NCBI RefSeq assembly: GCF_018986435.1
Contig: NZ_JAHMIN010000028.1
Span: 1-64,000, forward strand
Reading direction: 5' to 3'
Source of the DNA: Hahella sp. HN01
Lineage (GTDB): Bacteria > Pseudomonadota > Gammaproteobacteria > Pseudomonadales > Oleiphilaceae
DNA: 64,000 nucleotides
The notes under the pieces were generated by a model. The model saw only the letters and a program-made list of their open reading frames with translations, had not been told where the DNA came from and ran no database searches. This document shows positions 33,988 through 40,747 of the stretch, in pieces. Every line of letters starts with the position of its first letter. The first letter of the stretch is position 1. The position numbers were made by a program, and so were the translations under genes.

Positions 33988-34654
33988 GAGTTTTGATCAT
34001 CCAGAGATACCAGAGGATTTGACCCTTGCAGGTACGGAAGGTTCCCGCGAACCGACCAGTTGGCGCTATCTCACGCAAAAACTGGAACAGGCCATCGCAG
34101 AGATTCTCCTCCCCGGCCCGGCAATGATTTCCGAACACGACCTAATCAAACAATTGACCTCGCCGCCACATAGCATTTTTTCAGAGAACTGCCTGCAATC
34201 TCCACTGGATCTTTTTCAGACCCACTTCTTGACGTTCCATACGCTCTATCGCTTGAAAAACAAATGGTTACAAGAACATAATCTTGTCCTCGCCATGACC
34301 TCCGTACGCATCACCCTTTATCACTACGATGCGGAGGCTCACAGCAACCACAACGCGCCGGTGGCGGCGGACCCCTTGGCGGAATACTACCTCAATTCGA
34401 AAAACCTATTCGACACCAGCGCCGCAGACGTGGAAAAGCTGATCAGAGATTTTTGGCTGATGTACGTACACCCCCATCAAAAGCAGTCCGCGCTGGACAC
34501 CCTGGGATGCGCCCCAGATAGCGACGCAGGACAGATTAAGGCCCGCTACCGCCGCCTCGCCATGGAACATCACCCGGACCGTGGCGGAGACACCGCGTTG
34601 TTTCAAGCCATCACGGAAGCATATGAAGTATTGAAGGTTTATTACTCACTATGA
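33986..34654 (+). CDS. DnaJ-related protein (DNAJ_related N-terminal domain plus C-terminal J domain)
   Basis: A 222-residue co-chaperone-like protein. The N-terminal part (about 15-150) matches the DnaJ-related family, with LEQAIAEILL, ISEHDLIKQL and FLTFHTLYRLKNKWL. The C-terminal J domain runs from LDTLGCAPDSDAGQIKARYR through the HPD signature in MEHHPDRGGDTALF, ending at the stop. It should stimulate a DnaK-type Hsp70. The ATG at 33986 overlaps the divergent DUF547 ATG, and no ribosome site is visible. The 3' end overlaps the deacetylase gene by four bases (ATGA), implying translational coupling. Confidence 0.85.
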   Translation: MSFDHPEIPEDLTLAGTEGSREPTSWRYLTQKLEQAIAEILLPGPAMISEHDLIKQLTSPPHSIFSENCLQSPLDLFQTHFLTFHTLYRLKNKWLQEHNLVLAMTSVRITLYHYDAEAHSNHNAPVAADPLAEYYLNSKNLFDTSAADVEKLIRDFWLMYVHPHQKQSALDTLGCAPDSDAGQIKARYRRLAMEHHPDRGGDTALFQAITEAYEVLKVYYSL

Positions 34655-35727
34655 ATAACGGACGCTATTCTCTCACAGCAACATCAATCACTCGTCGGAT
34701 TCAGGCGCTTGGCATCGCCGCCGGCGTCTTGCTTTGCGCATCAGCCCAGGCTCAAGAAAGTCCCGCCCGCGCATACATACTGCAATACCATCACATCAGC
34801 GACGATACCCCGCGCAGCACCTCCACCACCCCGGAGCTCTTTCGCCAGCACATGCAGTTTATCGCCGATAATGGCTATCAAGTGCTGCCATTGGCGGAGA
34901 TCATTCGCACACTTCAGGAAGACGGCAACCTTCCCGAGAAAACGGTCGCGCTGACTTTTGATGATGGCTACAAAAGCATCTACGAAACTGCATACCCGCT
35001 ATTGAAGGAACGCGGATATCCATTCACGATTTTCCTGAATCCGGACGCGCTTGATAATCACCGCAGCACGCACATTACCTGGGAGCAGGCCCGAGAAATG
35101 GGGAAACACGGCGGCGTGGTGGCGAACCATGGCGTGGGCCACATCCATATGGTGGAAGTCAAAACCAATGAGGACGCCAGCGCCTGGCGCGCGCGCATCA
35201 CTCAAAACATCGAACAAGCGGAAAAAAGAATCGAGGAAGAGACTGGCGCCTCACTCAAACTACTCGCCTACCCTTACGGCGAATACGATGCGTCACTGCA
35301 AAAGTTGGTGAGTTCATTGGGTTACGTCGGATTAGGCCAGCACTCCGGCCCTATCGGGCCTGACAGCGATTGGACCTCTCTGCCCCGTTTTCCCGCCTCC
35401 AACGCTTACAGCTCCGTTCCGCAGTTAAAAGAAAAGCTGAGCACATTGCCGCTGCCTGCGCAGATGCTATCGCCACAGAACATCCTGATTGCAGATAACA
35501 ATCCTCCGCAATTGCGCTTCAGCACGGAGTTGAACGCAAAGGTCACATGCTACGGCAGCGGACAGGGCCTTCTCGATAGCGCAGTCGATAACAACGAAGT
35601 GACCGTCGTCGGAGCAGCTCCGTTCAAAGGCCGCCGCTTCCGCTACAACTGCACAGCGCCGGCTGGCGGCGGACTGTTCTATTGGCGCTCTTTCCCATGG
35701 ATCAATCCCGCCGTCCCTGAGGATTAA
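34651..35727 (+). CDS. Secreted polysaccharide deacetylase family protein
   Basis: A 358-residue protein with a signal peptide ending near SAQAQES. The NodB-type deacetylase domain covers about 38-240: YHHISDDTP, the metal-binding TFDDGYKSIYETAYP and ANHGVGHIHMV. LLAYPYGEYDASL follows as the later catalytic motif. The C-terminal 100 residues form a small separate domain with two cysteines. It probably removes acetyl groups from a cell-surface or cell-wall polysaccharide (PgaB/IcaB-like or peptidoglycan), but no exopolysaccharide genes are adjacent. Its ATG overlaps the stop of the DnaJ-related gene. Confidence 0.88.
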   Translation: MNNGRYSLTATSITRRIQALGIAAGVLLCASAQAQESPARAYILQYHHISDDTPRSTSTTPELFRQHMQFIADNGYQVLPLAEIIRTLQEDGNLPEKTVALTFDDGYKSIYETAYPLLKERGYPFTIFLNPDALDNHRSTHITWEQAREMGKHGGVVANHGVGHIHMVEVKTNEDASAWRARITQNIEQAEKRIEEETGASLKLLAYPYGEYDASLQKLVSSLGYVGLGQHSGPIGPDSDWTSLPRFPASNAYSSVPQLKEKLSTLPLPAQMLSPQNILIADNNPPQLRFSTELNAKVTCYGSGQGLLDSAVDNNEVTVVGAAPFKGRRFRYNCTAPAGGGLFYWRSFPWINPAVPED

Positions 35728-35731
35728 CCCT

Positions 35732-35754
35732 CCCCCTCTCGCCTACTCAGGGGG
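35732..35754. terminator. Hairpin between the convergent deacetylase and DUF4124 genes
   Basis: CCCCCT (35732-35737) and AGGGGG (35749-35754) form a 6-bp stem in the 15-base gap, reaching into the end of the minus-strand gene. No long T-run. Confidence 0.3.
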
Positions 35755-36879
35755 CAAAATCGCCAGATGCAGTATGCCGCTGGCGGAGTGGCTGATAACA
35801 ACCGGTTTGTCAGCCACACCTTCCGCAACAGTGCGCTTTTTGAGATCCGCCCCTGTCGTCAACAAGACGAGATACTTCTCATCCTTCGTTTTTACCCTGA
35901 GAAAACCTTCCAGATAGCCATAACGGAACCAGTTTTCCGGCTCGTAGATATAGAGCAAATCCTGCAGGAAGCGCACCGGTTTCCAATCGCTATCCAATAC
36001 CAACACTGATGGGTAAAACGCGTCAGGTTGCGCATATGCGCGCAACTGCAACAATCGATTGGCGCTGCCTTCAGGGATCTCCACAACACGATACAAGCTG
36101 TAGCCTACGCCGAAGTTGTAGCCCTGCTCGTCCTTGCGAATTTCCAACAGCTCCCCATCATCAAACTCAAGCTCAACCCGCTCGTCATTCACCAGGTTTT
36201 CACAGCAGCGATCGTAAATGAGGTCGATCTCCTGCTTCGCGCCCGGCGCGTTCAGGCCAAGCAAATCAGCGGCAATGGGGTCCGCGCCTTCGGGGAGACG
36301 GGCCTTTTCGATTCGTTGTTCATCCGCCACAACCTGAGCAGGTTGCAGAGGCTGTATGTGCTCCTTGGACTTGGCGTCGGCGGGATTATATTCTTCTGTG
36401 TGCATGACCCCGTTAGTGTCGACCCAGGTGTAAAAACGGCTATCGCCATCGCGCACAAAGCCGCGTTTTTCCAGCTCCGCCGCATCGATATAGGTAGACT
36501 CGTCGATAATTTCGCGATGGCTTGATTTAGGCTGGCTCACTGGCGGCGCAGACTGGGACCGCTCCCCTTCAGAAACTTCCTGAGCATCATTCGTAGCAGG
36601 GACTTCCAGTGTCTGGTTGGGAGTCGTCGCCTCCGCGTTAATTTCCGGCTCAACGGGAGGAACTGCCGCCTCAGCAGAAGCCGGACTTTTCTCGGCCGTC
36701 GGCTGAGGCGCTTCCGGCTGTGTTTGTTGTGGCGCCTGTGGCGAAGGCACTGGTTGTCCATCGCGAATCAGCGCATGGCGCACCTGACCGTTTTCATCCA
36801 CCCAGGTGTAGTACCTGTCCGCCAGCGCCGCGCCGCTACTGAATAGCGTCAACGAAAGAAGTAATGCACTCGTCTTCAT
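35743..36879 (-). CDS. Periplasmic DUF4124/MalM-like protein (possible FilE-type partner)
   Basis: A 378-residue protein from the ATG at 36879; the frame is open for 49 more codons, but those overlap the preceding gene and the signal peptide (MKTSALLLSLTLFSSGAALA) fixes the start. Two DUF4124-type units, YYTWVDENGQVRHAL near residue 24 and FYTWVDTNGVMHTEEYNP near 143, flank a Pro/Glu/Ala-rich linker. The C-terminal 170 residues resemble MalM (LLQLRAYAQPDAFYPSVLVL). Two bases separate it from the FadL-type gene, so it is the last gene of the envelope operon. The role is inferred only from the operon. Confidence 0.75.
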   Translation of the reverse strand: MKTSALLLSLTLFSSGAALADRYYTWVDENGQVRHALIRDGQPVPSPQAPQQTQPEAPQPTAEKSPASAEAAVPPVEPEINAEATTPNQTLEVPATNDAQEVSEGERSQSAPPVSQPKSSHREIIDESTYIDAAELEKRGFVRDGDSRFYTWVDTNGVMHTEEYNPADAKSKEHIQPLQPAQVVADEQRIEKARLPEGADPIAADLLGLNAPGAKQEIDLIYDRCCENLVNDERVELEFDDGELLEIRKDEQGYNFGVGYSLYRVVEIPEGSANRLLQLRAYAQPDAFYPSVLVLDSDWKPVRFLQDLLYIYEPENWFRYGYLEGFLRVKTKDEKYLVLLTTGADLKKRTVAEGVADKPVVISHSASGILHLAILPPE

Positions 36880-36881
36880 GC

Positions 36882-38504
36882 TCAAAACGCCGTCCGGAAG
36901 GTCATACCCGCCATGATCAGTTTCAGATTGGTCTCCACATCCACGCCGGCATAGGGGTTGTAGACAATATTCTGAATGCCGTCGTCGTTCAGGTTTAAAC
37001 TGGAGCCAGCGGGAATATACTGCCAACTGCGCATGTAGCTGAGGTTGAAGTCTACCGTCGTGTCTCTATCCCACTTATACCCCATGCCAACGCTATAAAG
37101 CACTGTGTCATTCAGAGGAGCCAGAATATCGCGGCGATTATGAGGGATTGGCGAGTTACGCATCTCTACCCCGAAACGAAGGTCCAGACGATTGGAAAGG
37201 TGCTGCTCGACGCCAACCCCCACATTCCAGACATCTTGGTACTCCAATGGCAAACGCATGGTGTTCGCCGTTGCGTTAGGCGACAGCAGACGCGCCGCGC
37301 CCAGGAATTCCAGGTTGCGATCAAACTTGAGCAGGAAGGCGTCCCAGGAACTGTAATCCGTCCACCCCACATCCACATTCACGGTAAACTGATGATTCAG
37401 CTTCACACTCACGCCGGTTTGAAAGTGCTGAGGGTGAGTCAGGTCGATGGATAGCTGCCCCGCTTCTCGGGGAGTCCCGGATGGCAATGAGAATATCCCG
37501 GCGGTGATAGCGCCGACGATCGAGCCGTTGAAGGAACGCCAGAAACCGGACCAGTCATCGGTATACGCAAGCTCATAAGTCCCTTTCAACTTCATGTCGG
37601 ACTCGCTCTGATAACTGGCCCCCCATGCGAACCAGTCCGTCGGCTCCCAGAGCACGCCGACGTGATATTTCGGGGACAAGGTCTCCTGCACCTGAATGCT
37701 CATTCCCCCAATGTCGTCCCAGGGGCCCACATTACCGCCGCAGAGGCCGAGAAACGGCGCCAGCGGTTCTTCTCCGGTCTCACAATTGAAGGCGTCCTGC
37801 AGGACCTCCAACACACCGATCATCAAGTTGGGCGCACGGGTATAGGTATCCAGCGCCAATGATTGAGACGACATGCTGACGCCAAACCCTACCGACCACT
37901 CATCGTTGATTTCATAGCCAAATGAAGGCGACAAGTACGTAAAACGCTGCAATGACAGCGCCTTACCCAGATATCTGGCGGAATCGTCTTTCTTCCGGTA
38001 ATAACCCAGAATTTCCGGGCCGTAGGTCAGGTTCGCAAACGTGAATTTGGAGCCCGGCGGGTTCAAACTGAATCCTACAGAAGGCGCCAGCGCCGGCGGA
38101 CCTTTCGGCAGACGCTGGATACCGAAGCCTGGCACGTACAAGGCGATGGTATTCGTGCGACTTCTAGCCACCGTATCGCCATCGAATATAGGGTCGTTTT
38201 CCACCCCATCGATACCGAACACGTTATAGCCTTCAGGGGCGTAGAAGTCAGACTGTATATTGGCGTGCACCCCCATCAGCGTCACCGCCAGCTGACGTCC
38301 CTTCAACTTGGTCAGGCCTGCGGGATTATAATGAATGGAAGCCACGCCAGGAGGCGCAGCCGTCACGGCGTTACCCAGCGACAATGCATAGGGGTCCACC
38401 ATCAGATTCGTCGCCAGCTGGGCGGAAGCGATTCCACTCCAGCAGGCTGCGCATAGTCCCGCCGTAGCCAGGAGCTTTGTATTCTTATTAATATTTAAGC
38501 TCAT
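36882..38504 (-). CDS. OmpP1/FadL family outer-membrane porin
   Basis: A 540-residue outer-membrane beta-barrel with a signal peptide ending at SGIASAQ. The N-terminal plug carries YALSLGNAVTAAPPGVASIH and the FadL motif HYNPAGLTKLKG. Amphipathic strands follow, ending in a C-terminal phenylalanine (MTFRTAF) as needed for Bam insertion. It is somewhat longer than E. coli FadL. A hydrophobic-solute channel is the family role, but here it is the third gene of an operon with a C39 peptidase and another barrel. It may therefore serve a surface-fibre or envelope assembly function, like FilD. Linked to its neighbours by gaps of 30 and 2 bases. Confidence 0.9.
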   Translation of the reverse strand: MSLNINKNTKLLATAGLCAACWSGIASAQLATNLMVDPYALSLGNAVTAAPPGVASIHYNPAGLTKLKGRQLAVTLMGVHANIQSDFYAPEGYNVFGIDGVENDPIFDGDTVARSRTNTIALYVPGFGIQRLPKGPPALAPSVGFSLNPPGSKFTFANLTYGPEILGYYRKKDDSARYLGKALSLQRFTYLSPSFGYEINDEWSVGFGVSMSSQSLALDTYTRAPNLMIGVLEVLQDAFNCETGEEPLAPFLGLCGGNVGPWDDIGGMSIQVQETLSPKYHVGVLWEPTDWFAWGASYQSESDMKLKGTYELAYTDDWSGFWRSFNGSIVGAITAGIFSLPSGTPREAGQLSIDLTHPQHFQTGVSVKLNHQFTVNVDVGWTDYSSWDAFLLKFDRNLEFLGAARLLSPNATANTMRLPLEYQDVWNVGVGVEQHLSNRLDLRFGVEMRNSPIPHNRRDILAPLNDTVLYSVGMGYKWDRDTTVDFNLSYMRSWQYIPAGSSLNLNDDGIQNIVYNPYAGVDVETNLKLIMAGMTFRTAF

Positions 38505-38534
38505 CTTACAACTCTGCCTGATTGTTGTTCCCGC

Positions 38535-39551
38535 TTATTGCTCTTTAAGTCCTGCGATATTGATGGGGATAGACACCCCGATAGTTACATCAGGCGAATC
38601 CTCCGTGAGACCAAACCCCACGGAGGTGTTAATGATTTTGGTTTCACTGACGCGAATGCCCATAGCGAAACTCATCAAGCTGCTGACCTGATCTTGGGCG
38701 ACTGCTTTATTGCCAGTGTCGAAACTCAGAACGGTTTCATCCGAATAGCTCAGCTGCGATGAAACACTGAGCGATACGTCATATGACAGCGCATAGGAAA
38801 AGCCCGCCGATAACGACAGGGAGTTGGCGGGTTCTACAGAGACCAGTCTCTGTCCCCCGCGCACCTGATTCAGATCCGTCTCTTTCAGAGGAAATGTATA
38901 ACTGACGGAGCTGAATATGACGACGGGATCAAGCACTTTAGAAAAGCTGCCACCAACGGAAAAGGAGTAGTAACCGCTCCCGGAAGACAGCTGCCTCTTG
39001 ACGTCAATCTCATATGGACTGACCCCGGTTTTAGACTTGAAAGTACTGAACAGGGTGTAGGACGGTTTCCCTGGGACATAAGCGAAAGGTTGCCAACGGG
39101 CGGTCAGTGAAACGTCTCCTACATCAGAGTTGTTCAGCTCTGTCTCGGTATCGTATTTGGTGGACAACGGCACGCGTGTGGACAGGGTCAGGTTATCCAG
39201 TACGCCATAGTCAAAGGTGAAAGTGTTGGTGAAGGTATGTTGCGCCGCAGGCGTGACGTCAAAATTCCGGAATGAACCGTTGACGATGTCGATGTCCAGG
39301 CGCTGGTCGCCGAAGTAGCTGTAGTCAAAGGCATAGGTCAATGACATCTTGCTCTTCTTCAACAAGGAGTAGTTTTTCTCCGCCGCCTGGAACACTTCCT
39401 CCAGTTGTTTAGCGGAATCGGCATCGTCCTCCTGTTTGGTCAACGCCTCTCTCGCCTTGTCCACGCTGTTTTGCCCCTCATCGGCTAAGACAGGCGAAGC
39501 AGCCGTAAAAGTAAGCGCACAGTAAACACAGGATACTACCCAATGCTTCAT
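38535..39551 (-). CDS. Outer-membrane beta-barrel with N-terminal coiled coil (FilC/FapF-like)
   Basis: A 338-residue protein with a signal peptide (cleavage near SPVLADEG). A short charged helical segment follows (SVDKAREALTKQEDDADSAK...LEEVFQAAEKNYSLLKKSK, about 30-68), likely a coiled coil. The rest is a beta-barrel of alternating strands (LTYAFDYSYFG, FTNTFTFDYGVLDNLTLSTR) of the kind placed in the phenol meta-pathway/transporter family. FapF, the amyloid exporter of Pseudomonas, has the same helix-then-barrel plan. The phenol name should not be taken literally. It is the second gene of the operon, 63 bases after the C39 peptidase. Confidence 0.75.
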   Translation of the reverse strand: MKHWVVSCVYCALTFTAASPVLADEGQNSVDKAREALTKQEDDADSAKQLEEVFQAAEKNYSLLKKSKMSLTYAFDYSYFGDQRLDIDIVNGSFRNFDVTPAAQHTFTNTFTFDYGVLDNLTLSTRVPLSTKYDTETELNNSDVGDVSLTARWQPFAYVPGKPSYTLFSTFKSKTGVSPYEIDVKRQLSSGSGYYSFSVGGSFSKVLDPVVIFSSVSYTFPLKETDLNQVRGGQRLVSVEPANSLSLSAGFSYALSYDVSLSVSSQLSYSDETVLSFDTGNKAVAQDQVSSLMSFAMGIRVSETKIINTSVGFGLTEDSPDVTIGVSIPINIAGLKEQ

Positions 39552-39614
39552 TAGCTTTCCCTTAATGTTATTGTATTTATTAGCTTTTCCAGACGGTTAC
39601 GTTTTCAGGACTTT

Positions 39615-40424
39615 TTAATTGCGTTTGTAATGCAAATACTTGTTGGTGTTGTTAACTGAACCGTCTTCGTTGTTTTTAAGTCTTTCCAGTTCGTTACGTA
39701 TGCGAAACTCCGTCGCCTCATGAAACTGAGGAAATTCCCGGTATGCATTTAAGGTGAAGGTCTGCTCATCCACATAGCGCATGTCCTCTTCTCTCAATTC
39801 CAGTCCGTCCACAGGCTTGGTATTGCCGGGAAAGACGATAAAGAGAACATTCTGATCCCAATGCTCTTTGAACAGCTCTACCGTGAAAGTGATGTTGCCT
39901 AACGAGGGGTCCGCCACAAAGACGCGATTATCGCGAACTGCGCGAACAACAATGAAATGTTTGAAGCCGCCATAGCGGATCGGCACGATAGCGGGGTGAT
40001 CCAGCTCAGCCAAGTCTTCAATTTCCGCTTTGAAACCACCTGAGGGATACCCCAGCGCCGTCACCAGTCGTTTGAAGTCGAGCATGGAAAAGCCACGGCG
40101 TTCAACAATACGCGCCGCGTCGCCATAATGAAGCAGCCCCTCCATGATCTGACGCTCTTCAAAAGTACGCCCCAGATAATGTTCCAACACAGTAGTCAGT
40201 GCGGCGGAACCACAGCTGTAGTCATAGGCTTGCTTGGTGATATTGCGAAACTTTTGCTCTTTCGCTGGTTCGACCATCGTGTCGTAACGCAAAAATGCTA
40301 CGTCATTGCCCGCAGTGCTGATTGCCTGTTGATACACCACAACCCCTTTAGGCTGCGGCTCAACAATAGCCGCCTCATTGGCGATATTGAAAGCGAGCAC
40401 CGAACCGGCGAGCACTAGAAGCAT
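39615..40424 (-). CDS. C39-family cysteine peptidase (FilB/FapD-like)
   Basis: A 269-residue protein. After a short hydrophobic N terminus (MLLVLAGSVLAFNIANEAA, without a positive N-region), the C39 domain follows. Its catalytic cysteine lies in QAYDYSCGSAALTTVLEHYL, the histidine in GGFKHFIVVRAVRD and the aspartate in VFVADPSLGNI. The oxyanion glutamine is QAY. Stand-alone C39 enzymes of this sort sit in fap and fil loci, where they are thought to process exported subunits. GTGGAAA precedes the ATG and a stop codon directly before it fixes the start. First gene of the four-gene minus-strand operon. Confidence 0.85.
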   Translation of the reverse strand: MLLVLAGSVLAFNIANEAAIVEPQPKGVVVYQQAISTAGNDVAFLRYDTMVEPAKEQKFRNITKQAYDYSCGSAALTTVLEHYLGRTFEERQIMEGLLHYGDAARIVERRGFSMLDFKRLVTALGYPSGGFKAEIEDLAELDHPAIVPIRYGGFKHFIVVRAVRDNRVFVADPSLGNITFTVELFKEHWDQNVLFIVFPGNTKPVDGLELREEDMRYVDEQTFTLNAYREFPQFHEATEFRIRNELERLKNNEDGSVNNTNKYLHYKRN

Positions 40425-40747
40425 TCATTTCCACTCGTTTTTATTCTGCGAAATTACGGGATTACAACGTAACTGTTTGTAAAGTAAAGATACCGCAATT
40501 GCCTTTCTGGTAAAGATAACCAGTACACAATTCTCAGTTAGACGGGAGCGCAAGATCGGTAAAATCCCTTATGCGCCAAGCGCCAGAGGGAGCAAGGTTT
40601 AGCAGAGGGTTCATAGCGGCGCCATCCCACCTGCCGCCACCCCATAGAAAACGCCTATTACAAGCTATTCGTTTTTAGAGTGGACGTTTCTTCTGGACAA
40701 TAAAAAAGACGGCGCATGGCCGTCTTTTTTTAGCTTAAATCGAGAGC
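40425..40747. other. Intergenic region upstream of the envelope operon
   Basis: 323 bases with no gene and, specifically, no small secreted or pilin-like frame that could be a fibre subunit. It holds the ppiD terminator at one end and should hold the operon promoter at the other. A weak candidate on the minus strand is TTTACT (40485-40490) with TGTAAT (40463-40468), 16 bases apart. CTGGT/ACCAG form a small inverted repeat at 40507-40523. Confidence 0.5.
40702..40731. terminator. ppiD terminator, bidirectional
   Basis: AAAAAAGACGGC (40702-40713) and GCCGTCTTTTTT (40719-40730) form a 12-bp stem with loop GCATG and a T-run on both strands. It lies 17 bases past the ppiD stop. Confidence 0.9.

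Follow-up and report, generated by a model that had tools for sequence, protein, structure and literature searches.

Analysis of a 64,000-nucleotide stretch of the Hahella sp. HN01 genome (contig NZ_JAHMIN010000028.1, positions 1 to 64,000; here referred to as the window) revealed a four-gene operon, filBCDE, which most likely encodes the export and processing machine of a Fil-type pilus, with the cargo genes lying elsewhere in the genome and with the peptidase FilB predicted to cut the cargo at a Gly-Gln (G-Q) pair closing a short leader. This reading is built on homologies of the four proteins, on their co-occurrence with leader-bearing proteins across genomes, on synteny, on the register of the leader and on a solved pilus chain (9XFV in the Protein Data Bank, PDB) that starts at the predicted cut. 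In our view, the system is a known one whose genes are newly arranged, and the mechanism proposed for it is specific and can be tested. An earlier note on this DNA had likened the operon to the fil locus of Acinetobacter and had proposed either that the fibre subunit is encoded elsewhere or that the operon is a separate machine with an unknown cargo; its interpretation is partly supported by the results described here.

The order of the four minus-strand open reading frames (ORFs) and the gaps of 63, 30 and 2 bases between them, as listed in the earlier note, were confirmed. The filB gene (39615..40424) encodes a C39 peptidase of 269 amino acids, the proposed leader peptidase, and filC (38535..39551) a Sec protein of 338 amino acids that consists of an N-terminal helical stretch and a FapF-like barrel and is the proposed outer-membrane export channel. 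Two putative accessory proteins follow, a FadL/OmpP1-type outer-membrane barrel of 540 amino acids encoded by filD (36882..38504) and a DUF4124 and MalM-like protein of 378 amino acids encoded by filE (35743..36879); the latter is counted from an ATG, and an alternative TTG start lengthens the ORF to 37026, overlapping filD. A search against Pfam assigned FilB to Peptidase_C39 (PF03412; E value of 3.5e-19), FilD to Toluene_X/FadL (4.6e-71) and FilE to both MalM (4.9e-12) and DUF4124 (7.9e-6), and gave no family for the FilC barrel. The proposed membership in fil-type families was borne out by NCBIfam, whose models matched FilB (1.3e-79), FilC (6e-100) and FilD (1.2e-159) over nearly their full length and FilE in part (7.7e-8). 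These are "exception" models with curated cut-offs, and all four matches fell below them (267 of 475, 335 of 630, 532 of 970 and 32 of 100 bits, respectively). The likeness to FapD and FapF of Pseudomonas, also claimed earlier, held as well: the NCBIfam models of FapD (2.6e-34) and FapF (7.1e-15) matched the operon proteins, more weakly than the Fil models did; direct sequence comparison of FilC with FapF (5o65) gave an E value of 3.9e-11; and the AlphaFold model of FilC (mean predicted local distance difference test score, pLDDT, of 79) retrieved FapF chains at all of the first 18 PDB ranks in Foldseek (best E value of 8.6e-19). The PDB relatives of FilB were the C39 domains of bacteriocin transporters, ComA and a double-glycine protease. 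Residues Q65, C71, H156 and D172, which we take to be the C39 catalytic residues, were invariant in all 24 aligned FilB sequences. Judged by reading of its hydrophobic N-terminus, FilB appears to be periplasmic and membrane anchored, and it is the only C39 protein over the Pfam cut-off in the whole genome.

Searches of the genome with DUF6160, the Pfam family to which FilA belongs (NCBIfam and Pfam hit the same proteins, each with a Sec signal and a leader), and with a leader profile found no subunit gene in 40425-40747 or elsewhere on the operon contig, C55; the earlier note had likewise seen none in that interval or downstream of the operon. On three other contigs, DUF6160 gave six matches at E values up to 10, four of them over the Pfam cut-off (best E value of 2.4e-17), and the profile of 40 leaders found five proteins at E values of 1e-8 or below, the next match being at 0.04. 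The five sit on two contigs, at C47:78451 (184 amino acids), C47:79248 (187), C56:55366 (378), C56:56529 (326) and C56:57557 (183). The expectation of a subunit encoded elsewhere therefore stood for FilA-type proteins; FilF was not found in the genome (best E value of 0.7). A separate machine with an unknown cargo need not be invoked, as FilA-type cargo was found and DUF6160 follows FilC across genomes. One member of the C47 pair, C47a, matched NCBIfam FilA with an E value of 3.8e-7, below the cut-off. Two further ORFs were not counted, namely C42:6428 (Pfam E value of 1.6, leader profile E value of 0.04), whose protein has no signal peptide, and C47c (206 amino acids; profile E value of 1.6), which holds only a remnant of the motif.

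The leader follows the signal peptide and has the consensus L/M-x-D-x-x-L/M-x-x-V/I-x-G-Q-x-G, reading L/M-x-D-x-x-L-x-x-V-T-G-Q in FilA. A pattern search returned 79 proteins, of which 73 were used (40 non-redundant leaders); a FapE-like protein and one from a Fap locus (L026, L038), a FilE (L032), a FilC (L168) and two ORFs taken to be spurious (L075, L129) were set aside. With the Gln as position -1, hydrophobic residues occupy -12, -7 and -4, and Gly occupies -2. The search pattern preset six positions (-12, -7, -4, -2, -1 and +2), with hydrophobic residues demanded at -12, -7 and -4 and Gly/Ala at -2; position -7 (Leu or Met in 40/40) and position -2 (Gly in 38/40) were both narrower than this pattern. 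Double-glycine leaders, the usual substrates of C39 peptidases, share this register at -12, -7, -4 and -2, their canonical -1 residue being Gly, Ala or Ser; one leader of our set (L189) carries G-G itself. The DUF6160 model covers only the N-terminal part of these proteins, behind which stand domains of very different length: the 70 proteins judged complete range from 115 to 826 amino acids, and one frame in L244 has at least 1897. In the proteins tested, the leader region matched no bacteriocin-leader family of NCBIfam even at E values as high as 0.5, and the open library that was searched yielded no statement on a FilA leader or its cutting.

The predicted cut coincides with the first residue of a solved fibre. 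9XFV is a cryo-electron microscopy structure of a pilus from a karst cave, named "Pilus-like-alpha", with 25 chains and released on 2026-02-18; our search of the open library found no paper on it. It was reached through profiles A4 and A5, a FilA fold model and one Oxalobacteraceae FilA. The model of a Pseudomonas FilA (pLDDT of 78) has a helix at residues 29-36, within the leader, and then strands only, and its best PDB match, the only clear one to a solved structure, was 9xfv_A (Z of 8.6, 38% identity over 92 residues). In the numbering of the entry, the alignment begins at residue 39 of a 173-residue chain, so that some 37 residues seem to be absent from the structure. The FilA profile matched the same chain with an E value of 2.6e-19, residue 1 of the chain aligning to the residue directly after G-Q, and the Oxalobacteraceae FilA matched it at 4e-29 with the same start. 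A 15-row profile headed by C47a gave a whole-sequence E value of 1e-7, from the second residue after G-Q, through one stretch near each end, either of which is weak by itself (0.017 and 0.054); the C47a protein searched alone gave nothing meaningful in the PDB. In published work, the curved filaments seen on an Acinetobacter have been assigned to FilA on the evidence of mass spectrometry (PMC10980823), a biofilm proteome showed higher levels of FilC and FilF (PMC8792954), and FilF was also raised in pellicles (PMC3203104).

On this basis, the peptidase of the operon probably removes the short leader of the cargo. It is unlikely, if still conceivable, that FilC or FilB uses the leader as a docking tag and not as a cut site, and that FilB instead cuts FilC or another Fil protein, thereby gating the channel. 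A conserved leader alone does not prove cutting, and a study on Fap lists cutting of FapF as possible, the target of FapD being unclear there (PMC5557850). Against such a tag, the 9XFV chain starts right after the leader, the residues of the leader are spaced as in known C39 substrates, and an alignment of FilC inspected by eye contained no leader-like stretch.

Across genomes, FilC and DUF6160 go together nearly without exception. With strong FilC defined as an E value of 1e-30 or below, strong FilC and DUF6160 occurred together in 39 of 293 genomes of the order and each alone in one (Fisher's test, 2.8e-46). Counted by hand at the genus level (n = 119; Fisher's test computed), both were present in 22 and DUF6160 alone in one. 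The FilC-only genome of the order sample (G415) is 65% complete, and its DUF6160-only genome (G327) was judged a false positive, a match below the cut-off to a sequence without the leader motif; both Fisher values still include G327. Among 274 genomes of the class, the same six carried strong FilC and DUF6160, two of them being also in the order sample, and two class genomes had 16 and 17 DUF6160 matches. In the phylum sample (n = 398), which is not independent because 10 of its 11 DUF6160-positive genomes are common to the order sample, strong FilC was found in nine genomes and DUF6160 in the same nine plus G327 and G656. DUF6160 was missing from every genome whose FilC match was no more than weak and FapF-like (0/12 in the order, 0/23 in the class). 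One genus of the window's family had both in nine of 11 genomes and neither in the other two, and the named genomes chosen for holding the operon, two of Hahella and two of Marinobacter, also hold DUF6160 (11/11 genomes positive). The co-occurrence, together with the lack of DUF6160 in FapF-only genomes, counts against a merely coincidental presence of the fibre subunits.

The operon itself is conserved, and its surroundings in relatives hint at an old common site with a cargo gene. We fetched 72 named loci by FilD and scored each member by its best BLAST match, a count that does not test gene order; genes were called by a simple longest-ORF picker, which gave antisense ORFs in some loci, hence the use of BLAST for presence. 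All four relatives were present in 60 of the 72 loci and FilB, FilC and FilD in seven more, with filB and filC spaced by 16-85 bases in the 67 loci that have both. The operon was found in Hahella, Marinobacter, Pseudomonas and others, and among these loci the nearest named relatives of FilC are from Hahella ganghwensis and Hahella sp. CCB-MM4 (79-80%). An upstream Sec protein accompanies it in L102 and L099, from one family, and in L032, from another; this protein belongs to Pfam DUF6160 and matches NCBIfam FilA (3.4e-37, 2.7e-35 and 1.4e-16, respectively, below cut-off), and L032 also carries FilF downstream (9.1e-19). In HN01, the C47 pair of DUF6160 genes adjoins cysH, thrH and pabB (gene names checked), the very place that filA-filBCDE occupies in L090, L093, L094 and L238, and in L232, from the window's own family Oleiphilaceae, a DUF6160 gene stands at this site without filBCDE. 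Pseudomonas loci also carry a pabB-like gene, at a greater distance from fil. Four loci (L092, L138, L139 and L141) have the operon at pabB and no filA called in between, which shows that this site can lose filA as well. For the subset of loci inspected, the simplest explanation would be that, in the family of the window, filBCDE moved away from its former position and left a pilin behind.

Several observations weigh against the proposed cargo and cut site. At -1, the leaders (Gln in 35, Arg in four and Gly in one of the 40) depart from the canonical residue. Disorder, or the way in which the depositors chose the chain, could account for where 9XFV starts. The alignment of the C47a group to the Pseudomonas FilA profile spans the first 69 columns only. 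The leaders of the C56 proteins are weaker, with Ala at -2 in two and Arg at -1 in one, and one of these proteins is under the Pfam DUF6160 cut-off. Finally, genome G656, from outside the class (90% complete, 340 contigs), holds a genuine leader protein with no FilC detected, which either argues against a strict link between the two or reflects sequence missing from a draft assembly. We also considered it improbable that the HN01 operon has switched its partner to a leaderless protein, leaving the C47 and C56 proteins as relics. Such a switch would fit the position of the operon away from the cysH-thrH-pabB site, the degenerate leaders of the C56 trio and the missing FilF; it is at odds with the presence of DUF6160 in the Hahella and Marinobacter genomes picked for the operon and with the joint presence or absence of both in the genus of the window's family. 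Least probable of all is that FilBCDE moves lipid or other hydrophobic cargo beside coincidental fibre subunits, for although FilD is a FadL-family barrel and a figure legend names Fil fimbriae on cells of the nonpathogenic Acinetobacter sp. Tol 5 grown on triacylglycerol (PMC3498257, a study that also mentions Edman data), the near-perfect co-occurrence with DUF6160, absent from FapF-only genomes, the adjacency of filA and filB in several groups, and the 16 DUF6160 matches, some below the cut-off, in a genome whose filB-filC pair (L033) has no adjacent filD or filE all argue otherwise.

Taken together, the data suggest the following route for export by the Fil machine. FilA-type proteins would cross the inner membrane via Sec; once the signal peptide is gone, a double-glycine-like leader of about 16 residues would remain, to which periplasmic FilB would bind before cutting after G-Q. 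The freed beta-rich subunit would then leave through the FapF-like barrel of FilC, FilD and FilE acting as accessory envelope parts, and subunits would polymerise at the surface into a pilus like that of 9XFV. In HN01, the cargo would comprise the two proteins at the cysH-thrH-pabB site and the three in the second cluster. The cutting by FilB, the channel role of FilC and the cargo role of all five proteins are inferred.

Further features were seen beside the cargo and operon genes. Clusters of leader proteins (about 400, 185 and 790 amino acids) recur at L243:285-5534, L234:3085-8304, L237:2452-6582 and L242, with L229:8367-11076 in the window's genome, and the C56 trio may be a shortened version of them; only C56a of the trio weakly resembles cluster members in other genomes (E values of 4e-7 to 3e-5). 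The C-termini of the recurring-cluster proteins differ from the FilA type, so these proteins may be tip or adhesin parts. Genome G010 has four short leader proteins (107-139 amino acids) in tandem (L288:2676-4256). Between filA and filB, three loci of one family carry a gene for a tetratricopeptide repeat and sulfotransferase protein (L099:11131-12726, L102:6516-8063 and L100:5638-7227; PF13469 tested in L102, the other two assigned by eye), which suggests a modified pilus or surface. Genes for MalT-like LuxR proteins, possible regulators of the pilus, lie beside fil in a Pseudomonas-type locus (L240:5978-8701) and near the HN01 C47 pair (L228:2-1543). The filB-filC pair of L033 (genome G138) stands, by reading, among genes of type IV pilus type and is possibly a minimal system; the DUF6160 matches of its genome are mostly short frames. 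In the window, a polysaccharide deacetylase gene (34651-35727; best NCBIfam model PgaB-like, below cut-off) converges with filE across a gap of 15 bases. At the other end of the operon, a hairpin with a T run after ppiD (40702..40730, minus strand), read from the sequence, suggests that filBCDE has its own promoter at about 40425-40700. A pattern scan listed neither a terminator at 40702..40730 nor any minus-strand promoter-like site; the hairpin was probably missed because its stem pairing runs on into the T run.

A leader in the same register is also present in Fap loci. Among 35 FapF-like loci, BLAST detected a C39 protein in 25, and in 23 of these the gene after it encodes such a leader, as judged by loose patterns used without a shuffled control (20 by pattern or reading; L048, L304 and L307 by hand). 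The Fap leader often reads L-x-D/E-x-x-L-x-x-x-R-G-G/R/K-F/Y; Gln takes position -4 in L307, whose -12 residue is Cys, and in a few other leaders. The remaining two loci, L038 and L046, have no leader after C39 and a leader-like stretch in an upstream ORF. NCBIfam identified three of five tested proteins as FapE and gave no family for the other two. The study on Fap (PMC5557850) notes GG/GA motifs in FapE, leaves the FapD target unclear and states that Fap secretion requires the active-site cysteine of FapD. The double-glycine register of its leader would make FapE the natural target of FapD.

On balance, we lean towards a joint reading in which Fil and Fap form the two branches of a single secretion class and the Fil leader is a portable address. 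If so, cargo of this class travels via Sec and still bears its double-glycine-type leader in the periplasm, until a free periplasmic C39 peptidase releases it for exit by a barrel of the FapF fold; one machine could then serve many unlinked cargo genes, five in HN01. DUF6160 would be a sorting signal rather than the domain of one family, 9XFV would be a Fil pilus, and the FapE leader is predicted to be the target of FapD, which turns the question of that target into a peptide assay. The analysis supplies a cargo, a predicted cut site and a likely route for a pilus system that carries no more than the label "putative" in NCBIfam, gives DUF6160 a role, and proposes the nature of the 9XFV fibre and the genes encoding it. 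Since the leader is searchable, a genome sequence suffices to list the surface proteins that such a machine handles, including those encoded outside the operon, and a poorly understood mode of bacterial surface-fibre assembly gains a testable cargo and cut site.

Among known systems, the closest is Fil of Acinetobacter (FilABCDEF; NF050077-NF050081, NF033645), with which the HN01 operon shares the filB-filC-filD-filE order, the protein families (FilE by a partial match) and FilA-type cargo in the genome. It differs in lacking an adjacent filA or filF and any detected FilF in the genome, in its dispersed set of five cargo candidates and in scores below the curated cut-offs. Fap of Pseudomonas (FapA-F) likewise combines a periplasmic C39 peptidase with a FapF-like barrel and has in FapE a leader of the same register, whereas its cargo consists of the repeat proteins FapB and FapC instead of DUF6160 proteins, and the FadL and DUF4124/MalM proteins are extra in the HN01 operon. 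Bacteriocin ATP-binding cassette transporters and ComA, with their double-glycine leaders, share the C39 domain and the hydrophobic -12, -7 and -4 and Gly -2 positions; in contrast, FilB is a separate peptidase, and Fil cargo carries a Sec signal and Gln, not Gly or Ala, at -1. 9XFV, finally, is a FilA relative by both sequence and fold, which starts after G-Q and ends in a FilA-type C-terminus.

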